Shown here: positions 1 through 25,525 of the stretch, one piece after another
How positions within the stretch are numbered: the stretch's first letter is position 1
How the letters are laid out: each line of letters starts with the position of its first letter
From: Polynucleobacter sp. UK-Gri1-W3
GTDB taxonomy: Bacteria > Pseudomonadota > Gammaproteobacteria > Burkholderiales > Burkholderiaceae
DNA length: 64,000 nt
Assembly (NCBI RefSeq): GCF_018881595.1
Contig: NZ_JACVQA010000008.1
Location: 228,061-292,060 of the forward strand
Direction: 5' to 3'
Notes under the pieces: generated by a model
What the model saw: only the letters and a program-made list of their open reading frames with translations
Databases searched by the model: none
Told to the model about the DNA's origin: nothing
Made by a program: the position numbers and the translations under genes

Positions 1-38
1 TGAACTGACCTGATTTTTAGTACCACTCCAAAAGAGAG
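1..38 (+). repeat. Left terminal inverted repeat of the IS
   Basis: The first seven bases TGAACTG are identical to the reverse complement of 1263-1269. Inside them the match continues imperfectly through a shared CCACT core and an AAAGAGAG block, with one single-base gap. Confidence 0.8.
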
Positions 39-75
39 GATTTTTGATAATCTCTCACTTAAAGGAGTGCTAAAT

Positions 76-357
76 ATGGCAAAAGGCCAACGTCTCAAAC
101 CCGAGCAAATCGTCACCTTATTGCGTCAAATCGATGTTCTTACAACGAATGGCAAAACCCTAGCCCAGGCCTGTAAAGAAGTGGGTACGGTTGAGCAAAG
201 CTATTACCGTTAGCGCAAGATCTACGGCGGTATGAAAGTCGATCAGGCAAAGAAGTACAAAGATCTGGAAGTGGAAAATACCCGCTTAAAGAAGCTCGTA
301 GCGGACTTATCGCTACGAGAGGTGATGCTCAAGGAAGTTATTAAGGGAAACTTCTAA
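76..357 (+). pseudogene. IS orfA (HTH/leucine-zipper transposase subunit) with in-frame amber stop
   Basis: ATG at 76 follows AAAGGAG (61-67) and opens a 93-codon frame ending TAA 355-357. It begins MAKGQRLKPEQIV, the usual N-terminus of IS407-type OrfA, and ends in a heptad-like segment (LEVENTRLKKLVADLSLRE). Codon 46 (211-213) is TAG inside YYR*RKIYGG, where family members have Trp (YYRWRKEYGG), so a single TGG to TAG change explains it. The stop separates the helix-turn-helix half from the zipper half. An in-frame ATG at 232 could restart translation of the zipper part only. The slippery site for OrfAB lies downstream of the stop, so fusion transposase needs amber suppression or reinitiation. 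Confidence 0.88.
345..351 (+). promoter_or_regulatory. Programmed -1 frameshift heptamer (G GGA AAC) joining orfA to orfB
   Basis: In the orfA frame the bases read G GGA AAC, a classical X XXY YYZ slippery heptamer six codons or fewer before the orfA stop. After a -1 slip reading continues CTT CTA AGC into the orfB frame, which is open from 345 (its previous stop is TAA 342-344). The geometry is exactly what OrfAB synthesis in IS3 elements needs. No downstream stimulatory structure was worked out. Confidence 0.7.
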
Positions 358-386
358 GCCCTACTAAACGCAAAACAGCTGCTCAG

Positions 387-1217
387 GTGTTGCTGCAGAA
401 ATACTCAACATCAGAGCGCTTAGCTTGTGAATTAGTAGGGCTCTCCAGAGCAGCGTATCGCTATATGCCACTGCCTAAAGATGATGAAGAGCCCCTACGA
501 GCTGAGGTCATCCGCATGGCGAGCACCTATGGCAGATATGGTTATCGATTGATTGCTGGGATGATGCGTAATAGCGGCTGGGGACAAGCGACTACTGCAA
601 GGGTTGCTCGCATCTGGCGAGAGGAAGGCCTGAAGATCCCACAAAAGCAAGCTCCTAGGGGCAGACTCTGGTTTAACGATTGCAGTTGTATGAGGCTGCG
701 AGCGACCCACCCCAATCATGTGTGGAGTTATGACTTTGTCTTTATCAGAGATGCTTATGGTGGCAAGATCCGCATGCTCACCCTGATTGATGAGTTCACC
801 AGGAAATGCTTAACGATCCACTGTGCCAGAAGAATTGGCTCGATCCAAGTGATTGAACAACTGGCCAACGCCATGATTACTCACGGCATCCCCGAGCACA
901 TCCGAAGTGATAATGGCCCAGAATTTATTGCTAAAGAGCTGCGTAGTTGGTTATCTGGCATTGGAGTAAAGACAGCCTACATTGAACCGGGCAGCCCTTG
1001 GGAGAATGGCTTTTGTGAAAGCTTTAACGGCACCTTTAGAGATAACCTTTTGGATGGGGAGATCTTTTATAGCCTAAAAGAAGCCCAGATCATCGTGGGG
1101 AAGTGGGTCAAGCACTATAACCATGTCAGGCCCCATAGCGCTTTAGGTTACAGGCCACCAGCACCCCAAACCCAAGTACCCAAACTATTGCAGAATCAAC
1201 CCATGTTGCTGCAATGA
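387..1217 (+). CDS. IS3-family transposase OrfB (DDE integrase core)
   Basis: The frame is open from 345; a separate start could be GTG 387, but in this family OrfB is normally made as the frameshift product OrfAB. An N-terminal HTH_21-type region (residues about 10-80, with YGRYGYRLI) precedes an rve integrase core. The catalytic triad is visible as SYDFVFI (first Asp), RSDNGPEF (second Asp) and PWENGFCESFNG (Glu), followed by the IS3 C-terminal HYNHVRPHSALGYRPPAP. OrfB itself looks intact; the defect of this copy is in orfA. It performs strand transfer at the element ends as a DNA-bound multimer. Confidence 0.92.
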   Translation: MLLQKYSTSERLACELVGLSRAAYRYMPLPKDDEEPLRAEVIRMASTYGRYGYRLIAGMMRNSGWGQATTARVARIWREEGLKIPQKQAPRGRLWFNDCSCMRLRATHPNHVWSYDFVFIRDAYGGKIRMLTLIDEFTRKCLTIHCARRIGSIQVIEQLANAMITHGIPEHIRSDNGPEFIAKELRSWLSGIGVKTAYIEPGSPWENGFCESFNGTFRDNLLDGEIFYSLKEAQIIVGKWVKHYNHVRPHSALGYRPPAPQTQVPKLLQNQPMLLQ

Positions 1218-1231
1218 TTTACTATAGAAAA

Positions 1232-1269
1232 ACTCTCTTTGGTAGTGGATCTAAATTGACAGCAGTTCA
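1232..1269 (-). repeat. Right terminal inverted repeat of the IS
   Basis: Reverse-complement partner of 1-38; it ends in CAGTTCA at 1263-1269. It marks the right boundary of the element, after which the sequence is unrelated to the IS. Confidence 0.8.
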
Positions 1270-1544
1270 CCTCGCCTATGATGCAATGACAAAAAAGTGG
1301 CCATGTTCTTTTAAATAAGATTGATTTCTTAGCTTTGGTCTACTCTGTCCTCTAGTATCAAGGATCAGCAAACCCCACCATATAGGATTTCTTTAACTGA
1401 CTCAATTAGGCCAAGAAGCACCTAATTGATCAAATTAACTCAGGCGTCTCCAATCGGCCATGATCCACCTACCCAAGATTACTTTGTTTGGCTACCTATG
1501 GGCTGTAAGTCTTCTGGTGGTCACACTAGTTGACTGTATTGCTA
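1270..1544. other. Gene-free spacer between the IS and the phasin gene
   Basis: No open frame with coding character is seen on either strand. It contains one clean hairpin, TCAATTAGG (1402-1410) and CCTAATTGA (1421-1429) around a 10-base loop, with no T-tract after it. The rest has no recognisable feature. Confidence 0.5.
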
Positions 1545-1570
1545 TTGACTTAATATCACTCCAATATAAG
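1545..1570 (+). promoter_or_regulatory. Possible sigma70 promoter for the phasin gene
   Basis: TTGACT at 1545-1550 resembles a -35 box. TATAAG at 1565-1570 (14-base spacer) or TAAGCT at 1567-1572 (16-base spacer) could be the -10. The spacing is short, so the call is tentative. It would give a 5' leader of about 40 bases holding the AGGAGG ribosome site. Confidence 0.35.
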
Positions 1571-1615
1571 CTCTCGTGACAAACGATTGGTTTTACTACC
1601 CCTTAGGAGGGTCTT

Positions 1616-2182
1616 ATGTATCAAGCAAATGAAAAATTAGTTCAAGCCCATCATAAATCAATGGAATCAGTTCATGCTTTAAGTCAACACGCTTTTGAGA
1701 ATAATCAAAGTTTGGCTCAAATTCACTATGATGTAACTAAAGAAATGCTTGCAATGGTTCAAGAAAAATCAGCAGAAATTCTCAAGCTAAAAGACCCTAA
1801 AGAAATTATGACCATGTTTAGTGCTCATGCTCTTCAAGAGGCATCCGCTGGTGTTGTTGCATATCAAGCTAAAGTGAATTCAGTATTGCGTAAAAGTCAT
1901 CATGAGTTAGTTGAAATGACTGATTCTGCAATTGAGCATGCTAAAGAGCGATTAAATGACTTGGTGGACGAAGCTTCTGCTAAAGCTCCCACGGGCTCTG
2001 AGGCATTTACAGCCTCTTTTAAGGCTGTATTTGAGGCTGCGCTCCAAGGCTTTGATCAAGTTCGCTCATCTGTACATACTGCTTATGCTAATTTAGAGAA
2101 GAGTGCAGATGGCGCATTAAATTCGAATGAACATGTTGTTCAGACAGCCACTAAAGCTCGCAAAGCAATCACCGCTTCTTAA
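1616..2182 (+). CDS. Phasin family protein
   Basis: 188 aa, almost entirely amphipathic helix: YQANEKLVQAHHKSMESV at the start and repeated Ala/Glu/Lys/His heptads, with no signal peptide or membrane segment. The N-terminal third (ending before the KDPKEIM segment) and the SxxxE/HxxL pattern fit the betaproteobacterial phasin family, which coats polyhydroxyalkanoate granules and influences their size and number. A strong AGGAGG at 1605-1610 sits five bases before the ATG. No PHA synthase or depolymerase is nearby. It is monocistronic, with its own terminator. Because it lies on the outer side of the tRNA-Arg scar it may belong to the integrated element rather than the core. Family call is good; granule role is inferred. 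Confidence 0.8.
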   Translation: MYQANEKLVQAHHKSMESVHALSQHAFENNQSLAQIHYDVTKEMLAMVQEKSAEILKLKDPKEIMTMFSAHALQEASAGVVAYQAKVNSVLRKSHHELVEMTDSAIEHAKERLNDLVDEASAKAPTGSEAFTASFKAVFEAALQGFDQVRSSVHTAYANLEKSADGALNSNEHVVQTATKARKAITAS

Positions 2183-2205
2183 TCTCAATATTGATAAATG
2201 AGATA

Positions 2206-2227
2206 GCCACCTTCGGGTGGTTTTTTT
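2206..2227 (+). terminator. Rho-independent terminator after the phasin gene
   Basis: Stem CCACC (2207-2211) and GGTGG (2216-2220) closed by a UUCG-type tetraloop TTCG, extendable by a G-T pair, followed by seven T (2221-2227). Confidence 0.9.
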
Positions 2228-2552
2228 ACTTTTGGGTGAACGACAGCAATGGGTCGGACTCAGTCATCCGTGATCAAGTAGGCCGACAGACCGCTTTGAG
2301 ACTGAAAGGAGTCCAACACACCTGTGATTTGTCGAAGAGATTAATGGCGAGATTGAAGCTGAAAATTATTCTTAAATCCGGCAATCACTTACTCGAAGGC
2401 AGTGAGAAAATTCGACTCTAAATTTGTGCAATAGAACATATGCCAAACCAATATAAACAAGGGGTTACAAGCGATCAGTACTCAATTCTATTGCACAATC
2501 TCAAGTCTGTAACTCATTGATTTATATAGATATTATGCCACTCCGATGTAGG
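2228..2552. other. Gene-poor end of the accessory region
   Basis: A frame of 76 codons crosses the terminator (2191-2421) but has no ribosome site and no recognisable protein, so no gene is called. Apart from the inverted repeat at 2424-2498 nothing specific is seen. The stretch sits directly against the tRNA-Arg fragment and is best read as the end of an integrated element or its decayed remains. Confidence 0.45.
2424..2498. repeat. 13-bp perfect inverted repeat flanking 49 bp
   Basis: TTGTGCAATAGAA (2424-2436) is exactly the reverse complement of TTCTATTGCACAA (2486-2498). The right arm lies 54 bases from the tRNA fragment. Arms this long next to an attachment site could bind an integrase or excisionase, or be the ends of a tiny mobile element. 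No T-tract follows, so a terminator is unlikely. Confidence 0.7.
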
Positions 2553-2599
2553 GGCTACGAACCAAGGGGTCGTGGGTTCAATTCCTGCCAGCCGCACCA
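2553..2599 (+). other. 3' fragment of a tRNA-Arg(ACG) gene; probable attachment-site scar
   Basis: From the anticodon arm onward this reads as the 3' portion of a tRNA. It has loop CTACGAA (2555-2561, anticodon ACG at 2557-2559), stem half CCAAG, variable loop GGGTC, T-stem GTGGG, T-loop TTCAATT, T-stem CCTGC, acceptor strand CAGCCGC, discriminator A and encoded CCA (2597-2599). Upstream of the anticodon loop the bases (GATGTAGGGG) neither pair with CCAAG beyond two positions nor resemble a D-arm or a GCGGCTG acceptor strand. The gene is therefore a truncated copy. Tyrosine integrases commonly recombine in the anticodon loop and leave this kind of displaced 3' end. Confidence 0.85.
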
Positions 2600-2608
2600 A
2601 CCTTTATA

Positions 2609-2643
2609 GGGCCTAGTTGAAAAACTGGGCCCTTTCTCTTTTT
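2609..2643 (+). terminator. Terminator of the ancestral tRNA-Arg gene
   Basis: Stem GGGCCTAGTT (2609-2618) pairs with AACTGGGCCC (2623-2632) over ten positions with one G-T pair, loop GAAA, followed by the T-rich TTTCTCTTTTT. Its position ten bases after the CCA fits the original tRNA transcript end. Confidence 0.8.
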
Positions 2644-2687: not shown

Positions 2688-3860
2688 ATGAGCACTTCTG
2701 ACGCCATTTCTACCGTTTCTGACGCTCCAGTGGCAGTTTGGTCACAGGTCGACGCCGATAGCGCCAAAGTGCTTATTAGCGGCAATGTCAACGTCTACTC
2801 CTTGGGCAATGTATGGACCCAAATCCGCAACTCTCAAGATGCATGGTTAAAACAGGGTGAAGGCAAAAGTAAGTCCCTTACTTTTGATGCAAGCAAAGTC
2901 ACTTTTTTAGATGGTGCAGGCATTGCATTTTTAATTGGAGTTCAAGAGGCCCAAACAACAGTCGGTGCAAAGTTCGAGCTTGTGGGCTTGGATCAGCGTT
3001 ATGAGCCTTTATTGAACGAATTCAACCCGATAAGTAATTTATTTCCCGTTCCCGCTGTTAAGCCCAAAAGAAGTTTTGTGGTGAGTACCGGAATGGCTGT
3101 TCAGAATTTAATTGATGATGCTGTTGGTCTCATTTCATTTACTGGACATCTTGCCTCTGATTTATTTTGGTCCATTCGCCACCCAAATCAAGTGCGCTGG
3201 GGTGATTTTGTGAATGCTGCAGTAGAGGCGGGTATTGCAGCACTACCCATTGTTGGCCTAGTAGCGTTTTTGATTGGTGTCATTCTTTCTTTCCAGGCGG
3301 CTATTGGTGTGCAGCAGTTTGGAGCCGTATCCTTCGTGGGTCCCTTGGCGGCCTTAGGAATTGTCCGGGAAATGGGCCCATTAATTACTGCCATTTTGTT
3401 GGCAGGACGTTCCTCAGCTGCCTTTGCTGCTGAAATTGGCACGATGACTGTTAATAGTGAAGTAGACGCACTTGTTTCTGGTGGTTTAAGTCCAATTCGT
3501 TTCTTAGTTGTGCCACGTGTTCTTGCAGGTATTTTGGTTGCGCCGATTTTGACTTTATTTGCTGATATCGTCAGTATTTTTTCTTCGATGTTGACGATGT
3601 TGATATATGGCGTCCCTTTTATTAATTTCTATAACGGCATGCTTTCAGCAGTAGATATTGAAGATATTGGGTCTGGATTAGTTAAAGCTACTCTTTTTGG
3701 AGTCGTTGTTTCTGCAGTCGGTTGCCTACGCGGCATGCAAACCGGAAATGGCGCGGCTGCGGTTGGTATTTCAGCTACGCGAGCTGTAGTAAGCAGTATC
3801 GTATTGATCGTGTTGGTCGACGGTATTTTTGCCTTCGTTTCCTACAAGACAGGTTTCTGA
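2688..3860 (+). CDS. MCE-type lipid ABC transporter permease with N-terminal STAS domain (MlaB-MlaE fusion)
   Basis: 390 aa. Residues about 18-115 form a STAS domain: LTFDASKVTFLDGAGIAFL matches the family's D-S-V-LD-AG strand-turn-helix, with Gly where SpoIIAA has the phosphorylated Ser. Residues about 130-390 are an MlaE-type permease with several hydrophobic spans and the typical LAGRSSAAFAAEIGTM element. In E. coli these two parts are separate MlaB and MlaE proteins. The gene leads a four-gene set with ATPase, MCE protein and lipoprotein, so it is the inner-membrane channel subunit of a phospholipid or other lipid trafficking system across the envelope. No clear Shine-Dalgarno precedes ATG 2688. 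Its stop overlaps the ATPase start (TGATG). Confidence 0.93.
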   Translation: MSTSDAISTVSDAPVAVWSQVDADSAKVLISGNVNVYSLGNVWTQIRNSQDAWLKQGEGKSKSLTFDASKVTFLDGAGIAFLIGVQEAQTTVGAKFELVGLDQRYEPLLNEFNPISNLFPVPAVKPKRSFVVSTGMAVQNLIDDAVGLISFTGHLASDLFWSIRHPNQVRWGDFVNAAVEAGIAALPIVGLVAFLIGVILSFQAAIGVQQFGAVSFVGPLAALGIVREMGPLITAILLAGRSSAAFAAEIGTMTVNSEVDALVSGGLSPIRFLVVPRVLAGILVAPILTLFADIVSIFSSMLTMLIYGVPFINFYNGMLSAVDIEDIGSGLVKATLFGVVVSAVGCLRGMQTGNGAAAVGISATRAVVSSIVLIVLVDGIFAFVSYKTGF

Positions 3861-25440: not shown

Positions 25441-25525
25441 GCCGACGTGGTGAAATTGGTAGACACGCTATCTTGAGGGGGTAGTGGCTTAGGCTGTGCG
25501 AGTTCGAGTCTCGCCGTCGGCACCA
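25441..25525 (+). tRNA. tRNA-Leu(GAG)
   Basis: Acceptor GCCGACG pairs with CGTCGGC (25515-25521), discriminator A and encoded CCA at 25523-25525. The anticodon stem is CTATC/GGTAG with loop TTGAGGG, so the anticodon is GAG (25475-25477), reading CUC and CUU. A long variable arm (class II), D-loop with TTGGT and T-loop TTCGAGT complete the fold. 85 bases. A TAGAAT at 25417-25422 could be the -10 box of its own promoter. It separates secG from the nuo operon and decodes the CTT codons used in the leuA leader. Confidence 0.97.

Follow-up and report, generated by a model that had tools for sequence, protein, structure and literature searches.

A tRNA-Arg(ACG) fragment in Polynucleobacter probably marks a freshwater family of cargo cassettes, most of which seem to borrow an integrase

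Near the left edge of the DNA analyzed here the 3' part of a tRNA gene stands in front of the gene for an MlaE-family permease, which raises the question of how it came to be there and what kind of DNA lies to its left. The window, by which we mean the whole stretch of 64,000 nucleotides, corresponds to C8:228061-292060 of our own Polynucleobacter genome (G000), with C8 denoting the contig; coordinates without a prefix refer to the window. The features immediately concerned are

2555 to 2599, plus strand: putative att core, a tRNA-Arg(ACG) 3' fragment from anticodon loop to CCA, read as the right attachment junction of element B
2600 to 2643, plus strand: original tRNA-Arg terminator, with a hairpin stem at 2609-2632 and then a T-rich run
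2688 to 3860, plus strand: MlaE-family permease gene (mlaE), the chromosomal flank, which adjoins tRNA-Arg in relatives

The 45 bp at 2555-2599 are identical to the 3' portion of an intact tRNA-Arg(ACG), from the first base of the anticodon loop to CCA and including the complete T-arm. An earlier note on this DNA had described a fragment of 47 bases between anticodon loop and CCA with an intact T-arm, and the start at 2553 that it gave takes in two extra bases (GG) which likewise match the intact tRNA. The terminator that it placed behind the fragment is borne out by a terminator-like hairpin with a computed folding energy of -20.0 kcal/mol, and a similar hairpin is found 3' of the intact tRNA in relatives, among the matches listed. 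ARAGORN calls no tRNA at 2555-2599, the sole tRNA of the window being a tRNA-Leu at 25441. An Rfam scan of positions 1200-2800 returned sub-threshold matches only, the best of which, to the sRNA BjrC68 of Bradyrhizobiaceae, covers fragment and terminator (2557-2642) and was set aside at 25 bits against a gathering threshold of 39 (E 0.0008).

The genome has three exact copies of the 45-bp core, each of them on the plus strand of C8 (190513, 220213 and 230615, the last being window position 2555), and only that at C8:190513 sits in an intact tRNA-Arg(ACG), at C8:190481-190557. Since the core is exact at three places, one of them an intact tRNA-Arg(ACG), the fragment is not a chance resemblance. 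This intact gene is 40.1 kb away from the window fragment, on its left, and adjoins the gene for a 366-aa tyrosine integrase, so that the search proposed in the earlier note, for an upstream tRNA-Arg(ACG) with the same 3' sequence beside an integrase, was successful. Comparison with strains that lack the insert, which had also been proposed, was made on the best 30 of 183 mlaE matches, comprising our own locus and those of 29 relatives; mlaE itself was found in 183 of the 186 genomes of the genus. A single intact tRNA-Arg(ACG) lies directly before mlaE in 26 of the 29 relatives' loci. When our own 1 kb left flank (the greB side, with the 5' half of the tRNA) was joined to our own 1 kb right flank, the resulting query aligned contiguously in 26 of the 29, that is, to an empty site with one intact tRNA-Arg. 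At L017, L024 and L027 the alignment begins at query positions 995-997, i.e., at the core, and these loci therefore seem to carry inserts. The 29 relatives' loci contain neither a truncated fragment without an insertion nor a non-matching tRNA-Arg elsewhere, the two outcomes that had been named as counter-evidence.

Since partial tRNA genes also have other origins, the fragment might be the relic of a tRNA duplication or of a chromosomal rearrangement in which no mobile element took part. Given the empty site in 26 of 29 relatives, the adjacent integrase and the paired 13-mers at fixed places that are described below, we attach next to no probability to this explanation, and the empty-site alignment led us to reject it. 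In 20 fragment contexts from our own and related genomes (one G098 junction is possibly counted twice) identity with the tRNA extends just 0-6 nt 5' of the core and so ends within the anticodon stem-loop. It is quite probable that the fragment is the attR of a cassette, B, lying in tandem behind a mobilizable element, A, in tRNA-Arg(ACG), with an integrase that would recombine in the anticodon loop. As such the core finding, an attR of a tRNA-targeted island, is ordinary. The longest frame of the greB-like gene (L007:9962-10558) runs backwards through tRNA-Arg and is a likely source of misannotated N-termini.

The earlier note assigned everything to the left of the fragment to one island, with its integrase end and the restored tRNA outside the window. 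The island and the location of integrase and tRNA hold, but the island is not a single one: a second tRNA fragment, at C8:220213, divides it into two tandem segments, A and B, and the integrase beside the restored tRNA belongs to segment A, not to B. The features of the two segments are

C8:190513-220213: element A, 29.7 kb, with cores at both ends
C8:190632-191732, minus strand: integrase A, 366 aa (PF00589, 28 bits against a cut-off of 27.1)
C8:220213-230615: element B, 10.4 kb, with cores and 13-mer pairs at both ends
1 to 2554, plus strand: last 2.55 kb of cassette B, which starts at C8:220213
1 to 1269, plus strand: IS3-like insertion sequence in cassette B, with rve domains in orfB
1616 to 2182, plus strand: phasin gene (Pfam Phasin_2), within cassette B
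2207 to 2599, plus strand: conserved right end of cassette B (C8:230267-230671 compared with the right end of the G022 cassette, 92.6% identity over 407 positions)
2424 to 2436, plus strand: arm-like 13-mer TTGTGCAATAGAA, first of an inverted pair at the right end of B
2486 to 2498, minus strand: arm-like 13-mer TTGTGCAATAGAA, partner of the copy at 2424-2436 in that pair

Like an IME, element A has its own integrase at an att site (75 bp past the CCA of the tRNA), direct repeats of the target at both ends and mobilization genes, which encode a TrwC relaxase and a TrwB-like coupling protein. Subunits of a type I restriction-modification system were recognized by eye among its ORFs, and no mating-pore genes were recognized by eye in the ORF lists, family scans having covered part of the ORFs. 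Integrase A gave no match to solved structures at E 0.1 and is assigned to no NCBIfam family. The ends of element A (L007, L008, L009) differ, with 13-mers of type I on the left and of type II on the right. Because these end motifs disagree, A may have a mosaic origin or result from the merger of two elements with loss of an internal att site, and may not excise as drawn.

B carries cargo for metal efflux. It encodes a CadR/PbrR regulator, a heavy-metal P-type ATPase and an HMA protein, and it also contains a 207-aa tyrosine recombinase, the IS3-like element and the phasin. The ends of the IS3-like element, 1 and 1269, were placed by eye from short inverted repeats; its orfA (76-357) is interrupted by an in-frame TAG and its orfB (387-1217) is open. 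B also contains 326 consecutive N (C8:227735-228060), beside the IS and directly left of the window, so that the length of the element is uncertain. There is no integrase at either end of B and no relaxase or coupling protein among its larger ORFs, the ones that were scanned. With att sites at both ends and transfer genes absent among the scanned ORFs, B resembles in these two respects a cis-mobilizable element (CIME), a class for which PMC5704250 lists Pavlovic 2004 and Bellanger 2011 among its references. B is not free of recombinases, since the 207-aa protein (L009:7513-8136) is encoded in its middle, in an intact frame and with a Phage_integrase domain, and one could imagine that B is moved by this protein of its own and not by an integrase of the A kind. 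We regard this as very improbable and rejected it: the gene is 3.3 kb from the nearer core, in a block without counterpart in a G022 cassette whose ends are the same, and recombinases comparable in size and score, possibly of one family, are found away from cores (our own C1:64004 and in G015, G047, G081 and G101).

What would bring an integrase to B is suggested by the short repeats at its ends. The 13-mer TTGTGCAATAGAA is present six times in the genome in exact form, each time next to one of the three cores, and its reversed control is absent; two direct copies 19 bp apart lie 3' of core 1 and likewise of core 2, and an inverted pair lies before core 3. Over the 186 genomes the double form of TTGTGCAATAGAA occurs at five places in three genomes, each time immediately 3' of a core, and the same geometry is seen with other motifs at other elements, for example TTGCATAATAGAA, TTGTACTACTGAA and TTGTATCATAGAA. 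We compared 77 core contexts, which are fetched loci enriched in multi-core genomes and not a random sample. A direct pair follows 11 of the 58 intact tRNAs and 5 of the 19 fragments, as against 2 of 15400 shuffled flanks, and an inverted pair precedes 15 of the 18 fragments with enough upstream sequence and none of the 58 intact tRNAs (shuffled flanks, 6 of 3040). For 13 elements both ends are available, and left and right motifs agree in nine (by inspection, including G091 with a looser match and G068 with a diverged right core), disagree in two and are too decayed in two. No permutation out of 20000 did as well, in a calculation that counts related elements as independent and uses a crude motif extraction (first minimum) that lowers the score of some true matches. 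The two that disagree are A, with type I on the left and type II on the right, and a short cassette of G022, with type III on the left and type I on the right. From their arrangement we read the paired 13-mers as putative integrase arm sites.

Cassettes with these ends are found in several genomes. G022 has a 3.5-kb cassette that matches B at 91.5% identity over the left 3.2 kb and at 92.6% over the right 0.4 kb, as compared with 72.1% identity for the mlaE regions of the two genomes, which argues for exchange of cassettes between species. A G096 cassette is 95.0% identical to B over its left 401 bp, yet carries quite different genes. Searching the contigs of 84,980 species with a right-end pattern gave 12 stretches, 11 from Polynucleobacter (4 of them P. 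meluiroseus) and one from a Burkholderiaceae MAG, the pattern being one that fits some right-end types only and the set one from which our own genome is possibly absent.

In order to establish how often such elements have an integrase we considered both the enzyme and the cassettes. Matches to integrase A are present in 22 of 186 genomes, at 24 places. The four with at least 49% identity, namely our own and those of G015 (81%), G009 (64%, truncated and with one internal stop) and G091 (49%), all lie beside a core, and no core was found at any of the other 20 loci. Counting an element as closed when both cores are on one contig and strand, there are at least 12 closed elements, from 8 of the 21 genomes with two or more cores, among genomes up to G133. 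A Phage_integrase scan of the 12 detects a member at an att end in two (A and G091), only the internal 207-aa protein in B and none in nine (two in G002, three in G022 and one each in G040, G047, G081 and G096); a more diverged enzyme could be missed, because integrase A itself barely exceeds the family cut-off (28 against 27.1 bits). When integrase A and other recombinases of the genus were compared by tblastn with 10 cassette sequences besides B, two of which are halves of one element and one of which is open-ended, all matches had E values of at least 0.15. Pfam scans covered 54 of the 61 cassette ORFs of at least 60 aa outside B, leaving out 7 short ones (at most 108 aa), and the families are catabolic, redox, metal, sulphur and regulatory, with no integrase family in the 54 among the matches listed (25 of 30 families, for 36 ORFs). 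Examples of cargo are a GntR regulator with TctC and mandelate-racemase proteins, a photolyase, ApbE with an FMN-binding protein, APS kinase with a sulfotransferase, and a sulfatase. These elements probably form a freshwater family of cargo cassettes, most of which seem to be without an end integrase and to borrow one.

Left ends can be divided into a cassette type, with 15 examples in 11 of 186 genomes by exact search, and an integrase type, with 10 examples in 7 of 186. In the next 0.5-1.5 kb, as far as sequence was available, none of the 15 cassette-type ends and 3 of the 10 integrase-type ends have a relative of integrase A. A 34-nt terminator segment is identical in three integrase-bearing ends (A, G015 and G009) despite their different arms. 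Between cassettes this segment is 0.93 alike when the arms differ and 0.94 when they are the same, and between cassettes and integrase ends it is 0.79 alike with arms the same or different, as computed without duplicates (wider sets give 0.94, 0.95, 0.79 and 0.76). Type I arms are common to the element of integrase A and the B, G022 and G096 cassettes, and type III arms to the G015 integrase element and cassettes of G002 and G022. Since the likeness of the terminator segment ignores the arms, and types I and III span both lineages, the arm motif cuts across the end lineages. Over the 80 nt past the arms likeness is 0.94 within an arm type, 0.66 between cassette types and 0.57 to integrase ends, and right ends are not split into two lineages, that of A grouping with type II cassettes; as we read them, both results speak against a clean two-lineage split. 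Integrase A and its G015 relative, 81% identical overall, are identical at 41 of residues 1-65 and at 151 of the 166 residues from 201 to 366, and the lower N-terminal identity would be expected of an arm-binding part that changes with the arm motif. G022 (L078, L079, L080) has five cores at which cassette-type and integrase-type ends alternate, and its contigs C3 and C4 gave no Phage_integrase match.

The best reading, in our view, is that integrase-free cargo cassettes are stacked at tRNA-Arg and moved by the integrases of neighbouring or visiting elements, in a CIME-like accretion; that the cassettes are mobile is something we infer from sequence comparisons. In the mechanism that we propose a tyrosine integrase, either that of A or that of a like element arriving later, would bind the 13-mers and recombine in the anticodon loop, and each incoming element would supply the 3' half and terminator that make the tRNA whole again, while the old 3' half would stay at the far end of the element. 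Because B is without an integrase at its ends, its movement would either be joint with A (att1 x att3) or depend on an integrase acting in trans on B alone. Other cells might then be reached through the relaxase and coupling protein of A together with the mating pore of a helper, or through DNA uptake.

One account of how B came to be without an end integrase is that it is a decayed mobilizable element in which the integrase beside att2 was deleted, a relic that is mobile by chance along with its neighbour, as in a classical CIME. Tandems of this kind are usually explained by decay and subsequent accretion, as described in PMC5704250; integrase-type left ends without a detected integrase exist too (7 of 10), and the right ends, that of A included, show no two-lineage split. 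We nevertheless consider decay rather unlikely, since all 15 cassette-type left ends, from 11 genomes, are without a relative of integrase A nearby, the terminator segment is 0.93 alike across arm types as opposed to 0.79 to integrase-bearing ends even with the same arms, the arm pairs are intact in most cassettes, and a shorter cassette in G022, without an integrase, shares the ends of B. With some reserve, and at a little under an even chance, we entertain for Polynucleobacter a dedicated and long-lived lineage of integrase-free cassettes at tRNA-Arg whose arms are matched to a circulating tyrosine integrase. Such cassettes would switch arm motif while keeping the rest of the left end, and would be to tyrosine integrases roughly what MITEs are to transposases. 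Type III cassettes are found in G002 and G022, where no relative of integrase A was detected, and the integrase element with the same 13-mer is in G015.

CIMEs were defined in streptococci as cis-mobilizable elements that undergo tandem accretion with ICEs or IMEs (PMC5704250). As described there, the likeness to the stacked cassettes at tRNA-Arg lies in cargo bounded by attL and attR, without an end integrase or relaxase, beside a related mobilizable element at a tRNA gene. The cassettes differ in that they share ends across several species and cargoes, in that their paired 13-mers match integrase elements of another end lineage, and in that they are not clearly decayed forms of an integrase element; with regard to descent from an ICE or IME, the left ends of the cassettes are of another lineage than the integrase-bearing ones, and the right ends are not separate. 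In Dehalococcoides, by the account in PMC3146451, many islands lie in tandem at one RNA gene, ssrA, which is single-copy and essential, and are separated by copies of its 3' end, much as here; 15 islands are without an integration module, and the authors suggest that these are CIMEs. Those islands use a serine recombinase, whereas the Polynucleobacter elements have a tyrosine integrase, and arm-site matching is absent from that account as far as it is described (PMC3146451). The additive flexible island fGI-2 of 'Ca. Methylopumilus', at tRNA-Lys, consists of islands of variable size marked by repeats of the tRNA 3' end, and resembles the present case in its streamlined freshwater host and its metal, stress and photolyase genes; arm sites and integrase partners do not enter its account, as far as described (PMC10872708). 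Tycheposons, which sit at tRNA genes, carry cargo and have a tyrosine recombinase, as outlined in PMC10872708 and PMC11389934, are likened by us to the elements described here, for which the tRNA target is tRNA-Arg(ACG) and most closed elements are, in contrast, without a detected integrase.

Compared with an integron cassette array, the junctions here are tRNA-derived cores. Literature on Polynucleobacter and on non-autonomous arm-site islands contains, among the matches listed, no title describing such cassettes. Hoetzinger 2017 reportedly deals with Polynucleobacter islands and may bear on them. The added interest lies in a cassette family with conserved ends and with arm sites that match the integrases of other elements. 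Adaptive gene exchange in small-genome freshwater bacteria is only partly known, and here one tRNA gene appears to be a docking site for stacked packages of genes for metabolism, stress and metals, in most of which no integrase was detected. Should the arm-site matching be true, it predicts which integrase moves which cassette, and the integrase pair that is 81% identical and has different arm motifs would be a natural test of how arm specificity evolves.

In G068 type II cassette ends lie away from mlaE (C1:587600-590600, L093:5600-8600), beside a diverged core and a tRNA-Met. The fetched stretch, L093, contains no intact tRNA-Arg, and these ends perhaps mark a secondary site.
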